Of a stretch of DNA of 35,001 bases, positions 1,845 to 33,617 are shown in pieces (the stretch's first letter is position 1; each line of letters begins with the position of its first letter). Source of the stretch: Pseudomonadota bacterium. Its GTDB lineage: Bacteria; Pseudomonadota; Gammaproteobacteria; Acidiferrobacterales; Acidiferrobacteraceae. Under the pieces are notes generated by a model. It was not told where the DNA came from, did no database searches, and was given only the letters and a program-made list of their open reading frames with translations. The DNA is taken from NCBI GenBank assembly GCA_021841585.1, contig JAKBUS010000025.1:1-35001 (forward strand). The letters run 5' to 3'. Position numbers and translations under genes: made by a program.

Positions 1845-2306
1845 TCACGGTTTAGGCAGTGGGTGCGCCAATGCCCATTCGTTTGTGCGCATCTGGCGCG
1901 CAAGCCGGCGCGCGCGATCCCCGACCTGCCGGGCCCATAGGCTGTCTTGCATATGCAGGGCGCAGGCCTCGTGGTCCCCATGACGGGCCGCCGCCAGGGC
2001 CCGATGAAAGCCGCTGAGCCGCCCGATGCCCATGTTGAAGGCCATGTTCACGAACACCGCGTGGCGCACGGTGCCGAGGCTGCGGGCCCATGGCAAGACC
2101 CGATCCACGTCGCGCAAGGCGGCCGCGCAATCGGCGCGCAGCATCGTGAGCGCCTGTTCCTTCGTCCAGGTGGTGCCAGGGCGCGCCAGCGTATGGCCAT
2201 ACCCAATGGTCCAGTGCCCGAGCGTGTCCTGGTAGGCGACGAGACGTAGGCCCTCGTCTTCCTTGAGTTGTGCGATCAGCTCATCTGGCACATCGGTGGC
2301 CGCCAT
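1845..2306 (-). CDS. GH24 phage-type lysozyme (endolysin)
   Basis: The 153-residue product is a T4-lysozyme-like muramidase that would hydrolyse the MurNAc-GlcNAc bond of peptidoglycan. The catalytic triad has the exact family spacing E-8x-D-5x-T: E18, D27 and T33 in DEGLRLVAYQDTLGHWTIGYGH. It is followed by the usual GTxWTxEQA and FVNMAFNMG segments. I chose the ATG at 2306 because GGAGGA lies 7 nt upstream and the family N-terminus starts there; the frame stays open to 2465 but the extra residues look non-coding. There is no signal peptide, so as in phage it would need a holin or other export; neither a holin nor any other phage structural gene is adjacent. It is probably a prophage relic or a domesticated lysozyme. 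Confidence 0.88.
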   Translation of the reverse strand: MAATDVPDELIAQLKEDEGLRLVAYQDTLGHWTIGYGHTLARPGTTWTKEQALTMLRADCAAALRDVDRVLPWARSLGTVRHAVFVNMAFNMGIGRLSGFHRALAAARHGDHEACALHMQDSLWARQVGDRARRLARQMRTNEWALAHPLPKP

Positions 2307-2358
2307 TCGCCGTCCTCCATGCTGGGCGCCGCTTGTGGGCGTCTTTGTCCATGACGCC

Positions 2359-2407
2359 GCCCGCCTAGCCTCAAAGACGGCAATGGCGTCTTTGAGGCTA
2401 GGCGGGC
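2359..2407. repeat. perfect 21-bp inverted repeat upstream of the lysozyme gene
   Basis: Arms 2359-2379 and 2387-2407 are perfectly complementary around a 7-nt loop (GCAATGG). On the minus strand it lies 53 to 101 nt upstream of the lysozyme ATG. It could be a 5'-leader structure, a terminator for upstream transcription lacking a U-tract, or a protein-binding site. Confidence 0.85.
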
Positions 2408-2519
2408 ATCGGCTGTTTGGCCAGGGCGCCAAGGCCGGGAACAAGCGCGATGCCCCCACGGGCACGATGACACCAGGGGCCAGGAGCCCATAACAGCGGT
2501 TCGTGCGTGGCGAGCGTGC

Positions 2520-2541
2520 CCGCGCCCCCCGGGGGGCGCGG
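2520..2541. repeat. 22-bp perfect GC palindrome
   Basis: This self-complementary sequence has no loop; its centre is CCCCCCGGGGGG flanked by CGCG on both sides. It lies in the non-coding stretch between the lysozyme gene and copD. Confidence 0.8.
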
Positions 2542-2741
2542 TTTGCCCGCCGATGAGGCCGACATGGCGGTAAGCGGCAGCTCGCATTCGCAGGGGCCGA
2601 CGAGGATGCATGGGCCCAAACGTCGTATTATGGAACGGCGTTGGCGTTCAGTCCGGCGAATGCGCCGCCGTTATCGCTAGAGGTGCTGGTGGCTGCGTAA
2701 AACGCAAGCGCGCCAACGCCTTTTAAGATTGTAAGACGGTG

Positions 2742-3887
2742 TTACAGCGCGATTTGGTTGAAGGGCGGCCGGGGTGTGCCGGTGCCGTTCATCTCCGACG
2801 CGCTGCGGCGTAGAACTCCATAGCGGATGGTGGAGATGGCCGGCATCGGCCGCACGGGTCTTTGGTCCTTGAAGCGCACAAATTCGAGCCGCCCCATAGG
2901 CTCGCTTACGCGCGCCATGGTACCGCCCATGGCGTGCTCCATTTCCCGTGGCGGCATGCCATGCAAGAGCACCGCGGCGGCCACCAGCGCCGCGCCCAGA
3001 AAGCCGGTCTCGATCGCCACCGAGCGCGCGAGGTGCGAGAACGCCCGTTCGTCGGCCTCATGCGCGGGCGCCGGCGTGCCAACGGTTCGCGGCGCGGGCT
3101 CCGCGGCGCGGATCCTGGGGACGAAAAGGAAGCGGTTGGCGGCGCCCAGGGCGATGGCGACCGCCACAAATGCGAGCTTGACTAGCAGTATGTGCCCGTA
3201 GGCGGAATGAAAGAGCGGCCTGATCCCGCCGAGGTAGTGATAGGCGGATAGCACCCCCGTTATGAGGATTCCGGCCAGCGCCATTGCCGCTATCGACGAA
3301 AGCCGTTGCACGAGGGCAAGCCGCACGGGCGTCGATAACCGCGCCTTTGACAGAACCGGGAATATCGCCACAGTCATGGCAAACAGCCCTCCGGCCCATA
3401 TCGAGGCCGCCATGAGGTGCACGAAATCCACCCATTCGGGCGCCGTCCATTGTCCTTGGTCCGCGGGATGGCCGGTCGCGCTGCGCGTAAAGGCGATGAC
3501 GGCGGCGGCCAGCAGGGCGCCATAGGCGGCGCGGTGGCGGGCGGGCCTGCGGGCAATGAACCACGCGGCCCAGGCTATGAGTAGCATGGCTGGCCGCACC
3601 ATCCAGATATGACCAAACGAGGTCTCGCGCACGACCAGGGGCAGCCAGTGGCCGAGATGGCGCAGGGATTGACGGCTCATCTCGAGCGTGCGCCCAATGA
3701 GCAGCACGATGGTGCTCAGGGTAAGCGCCCCCAGGCTCAAGCCGGTCAGGCGCCACAGACGGCGATGAAAGGATTCGCGCGCCCCCTCGGGGATGATCCA
3801 CAGACCGGTGGCAAGCGTGCCGATGACGGCGGCGAGCGCCATGATGTCAAAGGCGCTGATGGCGATATACGGCAGGTGAGATGACAT
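2742..3887 (-). CDS. copD: CopD-family copper resistance / uptake membrane protein
   Basis: The 381-residue polytopic inner-membrane protein has about eight hydrophobic segments, matching CopD/YcnJ-type proteins that move copper across the inner membrane together with periplasmic CopC. Family features are the WxxPEWVDFVHLMAASIWAGGLFA segment and the later LILITGVLSAYHYL-type helix with GHILLVKLAFVAVAIALGAANRF. The ATG at 3887 is preferred because it follows the copC stop after 4 nt; a GTG at 3905 inside copC would also be in frame. The C-terminal tail of about 80 residues is hydrophilic, with an HGMPPREMEHAMGG stretch rich in Met and His that could bind copper. It is the last gene of the barrel-copC-copD operon. 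Confidence 0.86.
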   Translation of the reverse strand: MSSHLPYIAISAFDIMALAAVIGTLATGLWIIPEGARESFHRRLWRLTGLSLGALTLSTIVLLIGRTLEMSRQSLRHLGHWLPLVVRETSFGHIWMVRPAMLLIAWAAWFIARRPARHRAAYGALLAAAVIAFTRSATGHPADQGQWTAPEWVDFVHLMAASIWAGGLFAMTVAIFPVLSKARLSTPVRLALVQRLSSIAAMALAGILITGVLSAYHYLGGIRPLFHSAYGHILLVKLAFVAVAIALGAANRFLFVPRIRAAEPAPRTVGTPAPAHEADERAFSHLARSVAIETGFLGAALVAAAVLLHGMPPREMEHAMGGTMARVSEPMGRLEFVRFKDQRPVRPMPAISTIRYGVLRRSASEMNGTGTPRPPFNQIAL

Positions 3888-13687: not shown

Positions 13688-14800
13688 CTAGGTCAGGCGG
13701 CGCCGGAAGAGCTGCATGGCAAGCGTCATGGTGGCAAGCCCGATGCCGATCAGGGGCAGGTACTGTGTCCAGAGTATGGCCACGCCGTCGCCTTGCAAGA
13801 AAACGCCACGCAGGATGATCAGGAAATAGCGCAGGGGGTTCAGGTAGGTCAGATACTGGACCAGCGGCGGCATATTGGCAATCGGCGTGGCAAAGCCAGA
13901 CAAGATGACCGCTGGCACAAGGAACAGAAAGACGCCGAGCAGTCCCTGCTGTTGCGTCGCCGAGGCCGAGGAGATGGCGAGTCCCACGCCGATCGCGGCC
14001 AGCAGAAACAGGGCAAGGCCCAGATAAAGGGCCAGCACGCTGCCCATGAATGGCACGCGGAACCATGATATTGCGACGACGATGATAAGCGTGGCCTCCA
14101 GGCCGCCGATCAGGAAGCCGGGTAGCGCCTTGCCGAGCAGGATCTCCCAGGGGCCAAGGGGCGTCACGAGCAGTTGGTCGAAGGTCCCGGCCTCCCGCTC
14201 CCGGGCCACCGAAAGACCAGACACCAGCATCGCCACGACCAGCGTCAGGAGGCCGACTATGCCCGGTATTATGAACCAGCGGGATCGCAGGTCCGGGTTG
14301 AACCACGCGCGCATGACGGGCACCGCGGGCGCTGTCTGCCACCCGTGCGTGGCCGCCCAATGCGCATTAAAAGACTGCACCACGGTATCGACGTCATTGA
14401 GCGCGAGAAGGCCGGTGTTGGAGTTTCGGCCATCGACCAGCACCTCTATCCGCGCCGTGCGGTGCAGCTCGAGGTCGCGCGAAAAGTGCGGACCTATGCG
14501 CAGCACCATGAGCGCTTCCTTGTCGCTTATGATGTTGGCGATACGTCGGCCGCTGGTGAGCATGCCCACGAGCGAGAAATACCGCGAACCCTGGAATCGG
14601 GCGATCAACTGCCGCGAGGCACCGCCGCGGTCCTCGTTGTAGACCGCGATAGGCACGTGATGCAGATTGAAAGTCGCCGCGTAACCGAACACGACAAGCT
14701 GGATCAGGGGCGGGCCGATCAGCACCATGCGGCTTGCCTTGTTGCGTAGGAGCGCCAGGAACTCCTTCACGACCAGGGCGCGTATCCGGTACCAGGCCAT
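13688..14800 (-). CDS. ABC-2 type permease (YbhR-like)
   Basis: The 370-residue inner-membrane subunit of an ABC exporter has one N-terminal membrane segment (VLIGPPLIQLVVFGYAATF), a large periplasmic domain (about residues 45-170) and five C-terminal helices starting at WFIIPGIVGLLTLVVAML. The permease signature VAREREAGTFDQLLVTPLGPWEILLGK is clear, as is NPLRYFLIILRGVFLQG. Its ATG overlaps the stop of the upstream permease as TGATG. It is the last gene of the tolC-hlyD-ATPase-permease-permease operon and would pair with the 14800-15915 product as a heterodimeric channel. Confidence 0.9.
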   Translation of the reverse strand: MAWYRIRALVVKEFLALLRNKASRMVLIGPPLIQLVVFGYAATFNLHHVPIAVYNEDRGGASRQLIARFQGSRYFSLVGMLTSGRRIANIISDKEALMVLRIGPHFSRDLELHRTARIEVLVDGRNSNTGLLALNDVDTVVQSFNAHWAATHGWQTAPAVPVMRAWFNPDLRSRWFIIPGIVGLLTLVVAMLVSGLSVAREREAGTFDQLLVTPLGPWEILLGKALPGFLIGGLEATLIIVVAISWFRVPFMGSVLALYLGLALFLLAAIGVGLAISSASATQQQGLLGVFLFLVPAVILSGFATPIANMPPLVQYLTYLNPLRYFLIILRGVFLQGDGVAILWTQYLPLIGIGLATMTLAMQLFRRRLT

Positions 14801-15915
14801 CAGTCGAGCCGTTTGCGCGATATGCGCGCCACAAGCCCGAGGAATAGCAGGGCGATGAGCCCGAGCGCGGCCATGTTGCCGCCGATGACCGGCCAGACAT
14901 TACCGGCCAGAAACAGCGTCTGCAGGATGGCGACGAAGTAGCGCGCGGCGATGGTGTGGGTAAGGAGGCGAATCGGCCAGGGCATGGAATGGATGTCGAA
15001 GATGAATCCCGAGAGGATGAAGGCCGGCAGATAGGTCGTCACCACGGCAATCATGCCGGCCACGAATTGATTGCGGGCGATCGTGGAGATCAGCAGGCCC
15101 ATGCCAAGCGTCGTGAGCAGGAAGAGGGCGGCGGCGGCAAACAGCAGCCACAAGGACCCGACGAACGGCACCGAGAATACGGTGATGGCCATCACCACCG
15201 TCAGGATCATCCCGCCCATCCCGAGGAAAAAGTAGGGGACGACCTTGCCGACAAGGATTTCCGGGATGGTCGCCGGTGATGCCATCAGCGACTCCATGGT
15301 GCCCCTTTCCCATTCGCGCGCGACCACAAGCGCCGTGAGCAGCGCGCCGATCAGTGTCATGATGAGGGCGATCAGCCCGGGGACCAGATAGTCATGGCTA
15401 CGCAAAGCGGGATTGAACCATACCCGGCTGCGGATATCGACGGGGAGCGTGAGCGGTTGCCCGCGTTCCCGGGCTTGCGCCGCGAGCCATGAGGCCCAGA
15501 CACCCTGGACATAGCCTTCGATGATGCGGGCGTTGTTGGCATTCACGCCGTCGACTATGACGCCGATCGGCGCGGACGCGCCGCGCAGGACCTGGCGCGT
15601 GAAGTCCGAGCGCAGCCACACGATCGCGTCGACATCGCGGCGCATGAGGGCGCGACGCGCGTCGCGCATGTCGGGATAGCCATAGGCCTTGAAGTATGGC
15701 GATCGCCAGAAGCCGGAGAAAAACCCGCTGGTCTGTGCGGACGGACGTTCCGCAACGAGTGCGATCGGCACGTGGCGGGCATCGAGAGACACGCCATACC
15801 CGAAAAGCAGCAGCAGCACCAAGGGCATGACGAAGGCAATGGCGATGGAGGAAGGGTCGCGCACGATCTGCAAGGCCTCCTTACGGATGAGTCCACGCAG
15901 CCGCTGCGCGTTCAT
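14800..15915 (-). CDS. ABC-2 type permease (YbhS-like)
   Basis: The 371-residue protein has the same architecture as the next permease: one N-terminal helix (IAIAFVMPLVLLLLFGYGVSL), a periplasmic domain of about 140 residues, and a C-terminal five-helix bundle beginning LVPGLIALIMTLIGALLTALVVAREWERGTMESLMASPATIPEILVGK. The REWERGTMESL element is the ABC-2 signature. Its start overlaps the ATPase stop by 4 nt (ATGA), so translation is probably coupled. Confidence 0.9.
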   Translation of the reverse strand: MNAQRLRGLIRKEALQIVRDPSSIAIAFVMPLVLLLLFGYGVSLDARHVPIALVAERPSAQTSGFFSGFWRSPYFKAYGYPDMRDARRALMRRDVDAIVWLRSDFTRQVLRGASAPIGVIVDGVNANNARIIEGYVQGVWASWLAAQARERGQPLTLPVDIRSRVWFNPALRSHDYLVPGLIALIMTLIGALLTALVVAREWERGTMESLMASPATIPEILVGKVVPYFFLGMGGMILTVVMAITVFSVPFVGSLWLLFAAAALFLLTTLGMGLLISTIARNQFVAGMIAVVTTYLPAFILSGFIFDIHSMPWPIRLLTHTIAARYFVAILQTLFLAGNVWPVIGGNMAALGLIALLFLGLVARISRKRLD

Positions 15916-17660
15916 GAGGCCTGCCTCGTAGGTGCCTCGTGCATCTCGATCAGCGCCACAAAGGCGTCATCCATGCTGGGATCGGGATTGTCGGCGGTTC
16001 TGGCGCTGGCGCGAATTTGCGCGGGTGTGCCGGCGGCGAGAATACGGCCGAGCGACATCAAAACGAGCTCATCGCAGTATTCCGCCTCCTCCATGAAGTG
16101 GGTCGTGACCATGATCGTGACCCCGTCCCAGGCAAGCGCGTTAATGCGCCTCCAGAACTCGCGGCGCGCCAGCGGATCGACGCCCGATGTCGGCTCGTCG
16201 AGAAAAAGGACCTTGGGTTCGTGGATGAGCGCGCACGACAGCGCCAGGTGCTGCTTGAAGCCCAGCGCCAGGTCGGCGGCGTTGGTGTCCCAGAACGGGC
16301 CAAGCCCGAACGTGTCTGCCGCCCAATGCAGCCGCCGCGCCCGTTGTGCCCCGGTCAATCCATAGGTGGACGCAAAGAAGGCCAGATTCTGCGCGACGCT
16401 AAGGTCGCCATAGAGGGAGAACTTCTGTGACATGTAACCGATGCGCGCGCGGGCCGCGGCCGGCGCGGCGCGCACGTCGACCCCGGCTATGGCAAGCGTG
16501 CCCGAGGAGGGTGGCAGCAGGCCGCAGAGCATGCGAAACGTCGTGGTCTTGCCCGCCCCATTGGCGCCCAGCAGGCCAAAGATGCGGCCCCGCTCGACCT
16601 GAAAACTGATGCCGCGGACTGCCTCGAAAGCGCCGAAGGTGCGGCGCAGCTCATGCGCCTCGATCATGACCTTGGGCGCGGGGAGGCGCGCGGGGGCTGG
16701 TGACGGGGCGGCTTGCGTCGCCGCGACGGGGGATGGCGATGCGGCGTCCCGCAGGCGCTCGACAAAGGCATCCTCGAAGCGCGGCGCGACCGGTGTGAAC
16801 GTGATGCCCGAAAGCGCGGGCGGGGCGGCGCCCGCGCGCATCACCACGCGCACCCCGTCGCGTTGCACAACGGTATCGAGAATGGCCGGGTCGCGGGCCA
16901 CAATGGCCTCGACCGCGCGCCCTGATAAATCCTGGGCCGTGGCAAAAAAGCCGCGGCCGGCCATGCTTGACCGAAAGCCCTCCGGCGGGCCCTGGGCTAG
17001 CAGGCGCCCCTTGTGGACAAGAAGGACATGCGCGCACCGTTCGGCTTCGTCGAGATAGGCGGTGCTGATCAGGATGCCGGTGTCCCCGCGCGCGACAAGC
17101 CCGCCCACGATCGACCATAGCTCCCGCCGCGAAATCGGGTCCACCCCCACGGTCGGTTCGTCGAGCAGCAGCAGGCGCGGCGGATGGACCAGCGTACAGG
17201 CCAGACCCAGCTTTTGCTTCATGCCGCCCGATAGATCCCTGGCAAGCCGCCGGCCGAACGGTCCAAGGCCCGTCAGGCGCAAAAGCTCGCCGTAGCGGGC
17301 ATGGCGCGCGGCGCGCGCGAGGCCATGGAGATCGGCATAGAGGTCAAGGTTTTCTTGGACCGTCAGGTCTTCGTAAAGGCCGAAGCGCTGCGGCATGTAG
17401 CCTACTGATTGCTGGATGTGGGCGGATGCGCCGCGGCTGTCGAAGCCCAGGACCATCACCCGCCCTTCGTCTGGCAACAGCAGGCCGGCGCACAGGCGCA
17501 TCAGTGTGGTTTTGCCGGCGCCGTCTGGCCCGAGGAGACCCGTGATCGCGCCGGCGTTCACAGTAAAGCCGACATCGGTGATGGCATCGACGCGCGCGCC
17601 TTGCGTGCGGAAGGATTTATGGACACCCTCAAGCGCCAGCAGTGGCGTGGGCGTGGCCAC
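15912..17660 (-). CDS. fused double-ATPase ABC exporter subunit (YbhF-like)
   Basis: The 582-residue protein carries two ABC nucleotide-binding domains joined by an Ala/Pro-rich linker (around AASPSPVAATQAAPSPAPA). Domain 1: Walker A GPDGAGKTT, signature LSGGMKQKL, Walker B LLLLDEPTVGVD. Domain 2: Walker A GANGAGKTT, signature position ALGFKQHLAL, Walker B VLFLDEPTSGVD. The degenerate second signature lacks the SGG core, as I recall for YbhF, so the two ATP sites are probably not equivalent. The start is the GTG at 17660, two bases after the hlyD stop, giving the normal YbhF length; the frame stays open upstream to 17765 inside hlyD. It would power the two downstream permeases. Confidence 0.9.
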   Translation of the reverse strand: MATPTPLLALEGVHKSFRTQGARVDAITDVGFTVNAGAITGLLGPDGAGKTTLMRLCAGLLLPDEGRVMVLGFDSRGASAHIQQSVGYMPQRFGLYEDLTVQENLDLYADLHGLARAARHARYGELLRLTGLGPFGRRLARDLSGGMKQKLGLACTLVHPPRLLLLDEPTVGVDPISRRELWSIVGGLVARGDTGILISTAYLDEAERCAHVLLVHKGRLLAQGPPEGFRSSMAGRGFFATAQDLSGRAVEAIVARDPAILDTVVQRDGVRVVMRAGAAPPALSGITFTPVAPRFEDAFVERLRDAASPSPVAATQAAPSPAPARLPAPKVMIEAHELRRTFGAFEAVRGISFQVERGRIFGLLGANGAGKTTTFRMLCGLLPPSSGTLAIAGVDVRAAPAAARARIGYMSQKFSLYGDLSVAQNLAFFASTYGLTGAQRARRLHWAADTFGLGPFWDTNAADLALGFKQHLALSCALIHEPKVLFLDEPTSGVDPLARREFWRRINALAWDGVTIMVTTHFMEEAEYCDELVLMSLGRILAAGTPAQIRASARTADNPDPSMDDAFVALIEMHEAPTRQAS

Positions 17661-17662
17661 AA

Positions 17663-18691
17663 TCAGTGTCCGCAGGGCCGGGCGTAAGCCCCGGTCCGCC
17701 GCTTCCCCTGGGGGATCAGGACGGTGACGGGCATGCCAAGACGCAGTGCGCCGGTGGGATTGCAAGCATAGACGCGCACGCTGTAGACAAGCTCCGTGCG
17801 CAGTTCCGTCGTTTCGACGGTCTTGGGCGTGAACTCCGCGACTGGCGATACATAGCCGACCCAGCCGGCAAACCGGCGGCCTGGAAGGTCCTTGTTCTCG
17901 ATGTAAGCGCGCATGCCGGGCTCGATGCGCGCCAAATCAGTCTCCGGCACATAGGCGCGCGCCCACACCGGATTGGTAAGCGCGATCGTGAATACCGGCG
18001 TGGCCGGGCTTGCCATATCGCCGGCCTCGAGGATGCGGTCCTCGATTATGCCGTTGGCGGGGGCGTGAAGGCGGGTATCGGCAAGCGCCCGGCGCGCCAG
18101 CGCCAAGGCCCCTCGATCCGCTTCGAGGGCGGCGCGCGCCGCCGCGATGTCTTCCTTGCGCGGACCCTTGACCGCCAGAATCCAGGTCTCGCGGTCGGCC
18201 TTCAAGGTCGCCGCGGTCGCATCCATCGTGCGCCGCGCATTGTCCATAGCCTCCCGCGACACATAGTGCTCGCGGTAGAGGGTGGCCATGCGTTGATAGT
18301 TCAGCATGGCGTTATGCCAATCGGCGCGTGCCCCCGCCACGTGCGCCGCCGCCGCAATGATCTCTTGCGGACGGCTGCCGGCGATCAGTCTCGCCAGGAC
18401 CTGCGCCTGTTCGCGGACCTGCCCGGCCGCGTGTTCGACGGCATCGGCAAACCGCGCCGCCTCCATCTGCGCCACGAGCACGCCGCGATGCACGGTGGCG
18501 CCTTCCTGTACATCGAGGCGCTCGATGCGCCCGGTATCATTGAAGGCCAGATGTACCTCACGAATGTCGATGTTGCCGTAAATGCGCAGGGGGCGCGCCC
18601 CCACCCGACCACGGCCGATCAGCAAAAACACACCGAGGCCGAGTACGGCAGTCACGCCGACAGCGATTGCTACCATGGTCATGCGCTTCAT
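17663..18691 (-). CDS. HlyD-family periplasmic adaptor (YbhG-like)
   Basis: The 342-residue membrane-fusion protein links an inner-membrane ABC exporter to an outer-membrane TolC. It has an N-terminal membrane anchor (VAIAVGVTAVLGLGVFLLIG), a lipoyl half-motif (GRIERLDVQEGATVHRGVLVAQM), a long alpha-helical hairpin (about residues 80-190, with ARLIAGSRPQEI and the paired TLYREHYVSREAMDNARRT) and the second lipoyl half (DTRLHAPANGIIEDRILEAGDMASPATPVFTI), then a beta-barrel. The ATG at 18691 is preferred because the anchor follows directly; an ATG at 18718 overlapping the tolC stop is equally possible. It lies between tolC and the ATPase in one operon. Confidence 0.9.
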   Translation of the reverse strand: MKRMTMVAIAVGVTAVLGLGVFLLIGRGRVGARPLRIYGNIDIREVHLAFNDTGRIERLDVQEGATVHRGVLVAQMEAARFADAVEHAAGQVREQAQVLARLIAGSRPQEIIAAAAHVAGARADWHNAMLNYQRMATLYREHYVSREAMDNARRTMDATAATLKADRETWILAVKGPRKEDIAAARAALEADRGALALARRALADTRLHAPANGIIEDRILEAGDMASPATPVFTIALTNPVWARAYVPETDLARIEPGMRAYIENKDLPGRRFAGWVGYVSPVAEFTPKTVETTELRTELVYSVRVYACNPTGALRLGMPVTVLIPQGKRRTGAYARPCGH

Positions 18692-19753
18692 GCGAAGTCC
18701 CGTGGGATATTCACCCATGTGCCCCGAAGTCCTGCGGCTTAAAGGCACGCCTGGGGCGGCGAATCAGCATGGCGTTGATGGTCGCGACATCAGCGGGCGT
18801 CAGTATGCCCGCGGCGCCCTTGAGGGCCACGCGCGCCACGATCTGATCGTAAAGTGCCAGGTTATAGCTACGCTGCGCTGCCGCATACTGCGTGGCGGTG
18901 CTCAGCACATCGATGATCGAGCGCGTGCCGACTGTGTAGCCTTTGCGCGTGGCCTGTAGGGAGATGCGCGCCGCGCGCCGCGCGGCACGCGCGGCATTGA
19001 ATTCGGTGACGCTGCTCTGCAGATCCAGGAAGGCGGTCTTGGTGTCCAGGCGGATGGTGTCGCGGATGTCGCGCAGGCGGCTGCGGTTGACCCGGACCGC
19101 GGCTTGCGCCTGCGCTGTTGCCGCCGACACGCCGCCACCTTGATAGATCGGCATTGACAGCTGCAGGCTGGCGCCGGCCTGATTGACCTCCACGGGGGGC
19201 AGCAGTATGCCAAGCCCATGCTCGGCCTCGCCGACGAGCGCGATCGTCGGCCAGTGCGCGCGTTCATGATAGGCCACTGCGGCACGCGCCGCGCGCACAT
19301 CCGCGCGCGCCTGCTTGAGCAGCGGTTGGTGGGCGAACGCCATCGCAAGCCAGGGCCCGATGGCGTCCGGATGCGGCGGCTGTGCCTGGACCCGACCAAG
19401 ATCGCGCAATCGCCCGAGCGGGTGGTGTGTCAGGCGTTGCAGTCGCTGGCGCGCCACGCGCACGGCATTCTCGGCCACGATGGTGCCGGCGCGCGCGCTT
19501 GCGAGATTGGCGCGTGCTTCCTCGACTGCGATCGGGTCGCCTTTGCCCACGCGCAGAAAGGCGCGCGTCTGGCGGTAGATGTCTGCGAGCAGGCGCTGCT
19601 CGCGCGTTGCCACGCGCGCGTCGGCCTGCGCCTTCAGGACTCCGAAATACGCGTCCGTGACGGCTTCGATCACGCGCTGCTCGGTCTGCGCGAGGGCCGC
19701 GGCCCCGGCGCGCACGCGCGCCCGCGCCAGCGCAAGCGCGCTCAGCGTCTGGC

Positions 19754-19789
19754 CATTGAAAAGCGGCTGAGTGAGGGTGATGCCATAGC
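19754..19789. repeat. 36-bp direct repeat, copy 1, inside tolC
   Basis: This sequence is identical at all 36 positions to 19821-19856. It encodes YGITLTQPLFN on the minus strand, in the frame of the C-terminal tolC ORF. The offset between copies is 67 bp. Confidence 0.92.
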
Positions 19790-19820
19790 GCTCATTACCC
19801 GCAGAATCTTTGCCCATATT

Positions 19821-19856
19821 CATTGAAAAGCGGCTGAGTGAGGGTGATGCCATAGC
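19821..19856. repeat. 36-bp direct repeat, copy 2, inside tolC
   Basis: This is the second identical copy, read in the frame of the N-terminal tolC ORF. The 31 bases between the copies (19790-19820) have no counterpart elsewhere in the gene. Confidence 0.92.
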
Positions 19857-20403
19857 TGTCGGAGCGGTAATTCGCTAGTATCGGCAAGCCGATGCCGGTG
19901 ACCTCCGCGCGGTTGACGCCAACGCTGGCCGCCACGCGCACGTGCGGATAAAGGGCCGAGCGCGCGACCGGCAGGCCGGCTTGGTCTTCGGCGAACTCAG
20001 CGCGCGCCTGGGCGAGCACCGGATCGTGCGCCACCGCCTGGTGGTAGGCACCGAGGAGATTTTCAGCCCAGGCGGAGCCTGTGGCGGCGAGAAGGCTCGC
20101 GTACAACACTACCCCACCATGGAGGAAGCGCATCTTCATGATATCGAGACTACCGTGTTCCCGGAATAAAAGAAACAGGCACGGGGGTTGTAGGACGCAT
20201 GTCGGATTACGTCGTGACACATTTCCCAGGAGGTCGGCGTATATTTACCGCAGTGTCACGGTATTGTGATAATGATCAAGAGACGGACCGGATTTTGGGA
20301 TTAGATATAACAGTTCCTATGCTGCGTTGGCGCGCGCAGTCCGCGGGGGCGTGCGTCATATAGGTCCGGTGCCAGAAGGGTCGCGGATTCCGGAGGCAGT
20401 CGG

Positions 20404-33563: not shown

Positions 33564-33581
33564 GACGCCATCCAGAAATGG

Positions 33582-33617
33582 GAAGAGCAGGGTGGTGGGG
33601 AAGAGCAGGGTGGTGGG
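33582..33617. repeat. 18-nt tandem repeat, two copies
   Basis: The unit GAAGAGCAGGGTGGTGGG occurs at 33582-33599 and again at 33600-33617 with no differences. Its length is a multiple of three and it reads as a repeated GRAGWW peptide in the frame of the gene remnant upstream. Confidence 0.88.

Follow-up and report, generated by a model that had tools for sequence, protein, structure and literature searches.

A recent chance loss of function in the outer-membrane part of a patchy MFP/ABC-2 exporter is probably the best explanation for the interrupted tolC-like gene described here. The gene lies in the window, by which we mean the whole stretch of 35,001 nucleotides that was analysed, and it is divided there into two reading frames at a pair of identical 36-bp direct repeats with 31 bp between them. 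It seems that one event added 67 bp, made up of a duplicate of 36 bp of the gene and 31 bp of other DNA, and that the resulting shift of frame would leave an N-terminal fragment of 114 aa and at most a C-terminal part devoid of a signal peptide. We infer that the altered sequence is real DNA that became fixed in the sampled population, for which the exporter would not have been needed.

Structure of the divided gene and its operon

The genome from which the window comes (G000) is a draft of 124 contigs, 99.67% complete, and it provides one sequence of the structure. The two 36-bp copies are identical at 36/36 positions, their starts are 67 bp apart, and the repeat-spacer-repeat has a total length of 103 bp (Table 1). 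When the window was scanned for non-overlapping direct repeats with 16-bp exact seeds, this pair was the only one of its kind, and chance cannot account for a perfect 36-bp match so close by. The original prediction had described two perfect copies offset by 67 bp, each in the frame of its own half of a TolC gene split out of frame. Re-measurement of the coordinates and of the identity confirmed the copies, the translations of both halves agree with the frames, and both halves match the OEP profile PF02321 in their two frames (30.3 and 167.1 bits, membership being defined as a score above the gathering cut-off of 22 bits). The upstream half is closed by TAA-TGA directly past the first copy. 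An outer-membrane duct would not be expected from this arrangement because the second half has no signal-peptide-like start, which is found only in the first. The tolC-like gene heads an operon of an adaptor, an ABC ATPase and two ABC-2 permeases, all of which are open, as had also been predicted.

Table 1. Window coordinates of the repeats, the two parts of the tolC-like gene and the remaining operon genes
Feature	Position	Strand	Remarks
5′ half of tolC-like gene	19795..20139	-	Start, signal-peptide-like N-terminus, first OEP segment; TAA at 19797-19795; PF02321, E 4.4e-7
36-bp repeat, first copy in gene direction	19821..19856	-	Encodes SYGITLTQPLFN in the 5′ frame
31-bp intervening sequence	19790..19820	-	45% G+C, against 63% for the window
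36-bp repeat, second copy	19754..19789	-	In the 3′ frame
3′ part of tolC-like gene	18711..19820	-	Own frame, without signal peptide; PF02321, E 4.9e-49
Periplasmic adaptor (HlyD/MFP)	17663..18748	-	Intact, same operon; PF16576, PF13437
ABC ATPase, two nucleotide-binding domains	15912..17765	-	Intact; PF00005
ABC-2 permease	14800..15915	-	Intact; PF12698
Second ABC-2 permease	13688..14800	-	Intact; PF12698

The form with one copy had been proposed to be the intact one, and it is indeed the form seen in relatives. A single copy without spacer is present at the corresponding point in G006, G012, G002 and G013 and in the loci L045, L046, L049, L053 and L054, and in every relative read the gene is a single open frame with one copy. 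The nearest relative is G006, whose DNA is 91% identical ahead of the repeat and whose protein is 94% identical over 431 aa; its intact form reads YRSDSYGITLTQPLFNGQ at the repeat site. Close homologues carry the motif (Y/F)xSDSY..TLTQPL there, and distant ones have looser variants. Because all relatives read carry the single copy in an open frame, the 67 bp appear to have been gained in the window's own lineage as a private, recent mutation. The dN/dS of the gene read across both halves is 0.16 against G006 (0.22 before the repeat and 0.13 after it), and on the strength of this value the break is recent, with purifying selection having held until shortly before it and decay having hardly begun.

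A DNA match to the tolC-like gene was found in 8 of the 14 genus genomes, with a match over much of the gene in five of them, the window's own genome included. The exporter was lost independently, by deletion, in the congener G013, and the two independent losses, one in the window's own lineage and one in G013, suggest that it is dispensable. At the G013 locus (L021, G013:C2:934500-938500), the tolC match ends at about codon 134, and neither adaptor nor ATPase is present between that point and the permease (positions 2034-3240). An ORF on the minus strand at 2402-3244 of this locus, named as transposase-like by its sequence alone, replaces the lost genes.

Origin of the additional 67 bp

Searches for a source of the 31 bp covered several kinds of sequence. 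The spacer has no second place in its own genome at up to 3 mismatches and no match in another 17 genomes from its family, and its two halves are unique in the 14 genus genomes with 1 mismatch allowed. A degenerate (synonymous) spelling had no match in a scan of GTDB contigs, and the 20-base core had none in viral contigs. Matches to phage and plasmid records were at chance level (best E 0.8), and comparison with the neighbouring 1.3 kb on both strands gave nothing better than shuffles.

These results bear on the earlier suggestion that the 31 bp plausibly represent a piece of TolC and may have come in by recombination with a tolC paralogue carrying NMGKDSAGNERYGITL. As that suggestion would have it, the downstream frame runs through the 31 bp without a stop; however, an open frame over ten codons in 31 bp is no evidence of coding, and most random sequences of 31 bases are open as well. 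The peptide NMGKDSAGNER is found at the repeat site in none of the TolC homologues examined across the order. The check that had been proposed, a search of the window's own genome for another tolC encoding the segment, returned 18 OEP matches at several places, none of which carries it. With no donor in the own genome, in the 17 family genomes or among the TolC homologues of the order, neither the TolC-segment interpretation nor the paralogue as its source was upheld. Moreover, the two copies in the window are perfectly identical, whereas a sister species differs from the window repeat at 3/36 sites, and this speaks for the copying of a local stretch. We therefore regard recombination with a paralogue as barely credible.

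A CRISPR array was observed in the congener G001 (L142/L138, G001:C1:402881-405457), with 38 identical 36-bp repeats in units of mostly 67-71 bp; it adjoins cas1/cas2 genes, with Cas1-like and Cas2-like matches, two of each, close together. The spacers of this array are mostly 31-35 bp long. The 36 and 31 bp in the tolC-like gene likewise amount to a repeat-length duplication around a spacer-length insert, and Nivala and colleagues reportedly described in 2018 neo-CRISPR loci that result from non-canonical (off-target) spacer integration. An off-target integration by Cas1-Cas2 could thus have duplicated a repeat-length target in tolC and inserted a foreign fragment of spacer length, with which the lower G+C content and foreign look of the 31 bp would agree. 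Non-canonical Cas1-Cas2 integration outside arrays, on overexpression, is cited in PMC11788318, and off-target integration is cited also in PMC9456107. The likeness to neo-CRISPR loci, as known from these citing papers, lies in the duplication of a target of about repeat length around the insert. However, the present host genome has neither Cas1 (PF01867) nor Cas2 (PF09827) at its 99.67% completeness, both being present in G001 and G005. The G001 repeat is absent from it genome-wide at 3 mismatches, and there is no CRISPR array in the 60% of it that was read. The tolC target itself shows a weak likeness to the G001 repeat, matching it at 12/36 positions without gaps and, with gaps, reaching p 0.03 on one of the two strands, and the spacer has no viral match and only the chance-level phage matches given above. 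Integration of this kind is in our judgement highly improbable, and a similarly slight probability attaches to the fuller scenario in which a natural off-target event disabled tolC, leaving within it a one-spacer array with a 36-bp repeat, the CRISPR system having since been lost or gone unbinned. Were this correct, CRISPR machinery would here have mutated genes of its own host, a natural event of a rare kind, in a genome without the genes needed for it.

Chance loss of function, which we favour, can be compared with ordinary frameshift pseudogenes that arise by a short duplication or insertion. As in those, the frame break is recent and private, the rest of the operon is intact, and the relatives have an intact single copy. 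The difference from ordinary duplication pseudogenes is that the copies are not in tandem, and plain slippage does not explain the origin because 31 unrelated bases separate them. An aberrant strand switch during replication or repair, with a short filler, most likely produced the structure, this forming event being a guess. End-joining repair with filler is disfavoured since Ku (PF02735) is absent from G000.

Assembly fidelity and the question of an on/off switch

It might be argued that the second copy and 31 stray bases were put into the contig by a chimeric read or a strain bubble, the true gene being intact. The purifying selection on the gene and the failure of every search to find a homologue of the spacer would fit such an artefact, as would the fragmentation of the draft and the nature of the related records, which are MAGs assembled in SPAdes style. 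The contig ends, however, overlap by exactly 127 bp in three cases and by 125-126 bp in others, and overlaps of 127 bp are the mark of a SPAdes-like k=127 de Bruijn assembly. Since the 103-bp structure fits inside one 127-mer, it was probably read directly and would not result from a simple join of overlapping ends, which is an argument rather than a proof; multi-k assemblers also pass earlier contigs forward. A systematic assembly fault is also unlikely, because no second repeat-spacer-repeat of like type was found in the 1.55 Mb read, 60% of the genome. The window contains no N, which also counts against an artefact. Taken together, we hold an artefact to be unlikely, though it is the alternative to which we give the most weight.

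Two other repeat regions of the genome came nearest to the structure in shape and were judged by eye to be different in kind: a coiled-coil-like gene with heptad-like repeats (L100), and repeats beside a transposase-like gene (L103). In the latter (G000:C27, positions 1902-1980), ccttaatggcgccag motifs occur in short direct repeats that may mark the end of an insertion sequence.

A gene split by direct repeats lying near one another is easily taken for a switch, and the original prediction had offered a reversible switch and a dead gene as alternatives. Under the former, slippage between the two 36-bp repeats would produce phase variation of the exporter. Slippage that does not depend on RecA is documented to recombine identical direct repeats that lie close to each other, the more so the greater their length and the shorter their distance (PMC8047081). 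It is likely that the tolC-like gene could revert by loss of the 67-bp unit, and the open state of the other operon genes and the low dN/dS are in keeping with a switch. However, a true switch must go both ways, and because the genome contains the spacer only once, a lost unit could not be regained, leaving at best a one-way reversion. The repeat-spacer-repeat is kept by no relative read, all of them being single-copy and of species other than the host's, and the congener lost its exporter by deletion. Thus, the tolC structure shares with phase-variable (contingency) genes direct repeats whose slippage could restore the frame, but it has neither their conservation nor a way to regain the spacer, and it bears no sign of selection for switching. 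We consider phase variation decidedly improbable; of the switch that had been predicted there stands a mechanical possibility only. Any reversion by slippage would be a by-product of the mutation rather than an evolved switch, and it is the comparison with relatives that reveals a private, recent knock-out. The dead-gene alternative is the better supported of the two, with the qualification that, at a dN/dS of 0.16, the gene would have died only recently.

Two further sequence features were seen elsewhere in the window. At 33580-33615, 18 bp (GGGAAGAGCAGGGTGGTG) are perfectly duplicated in tandem, and at 2359-2407 there is a 24-bp inverted repeat with a 1-bp loop, 96% complementary, which could be terminator-like or an extrusion-prone palindrome.
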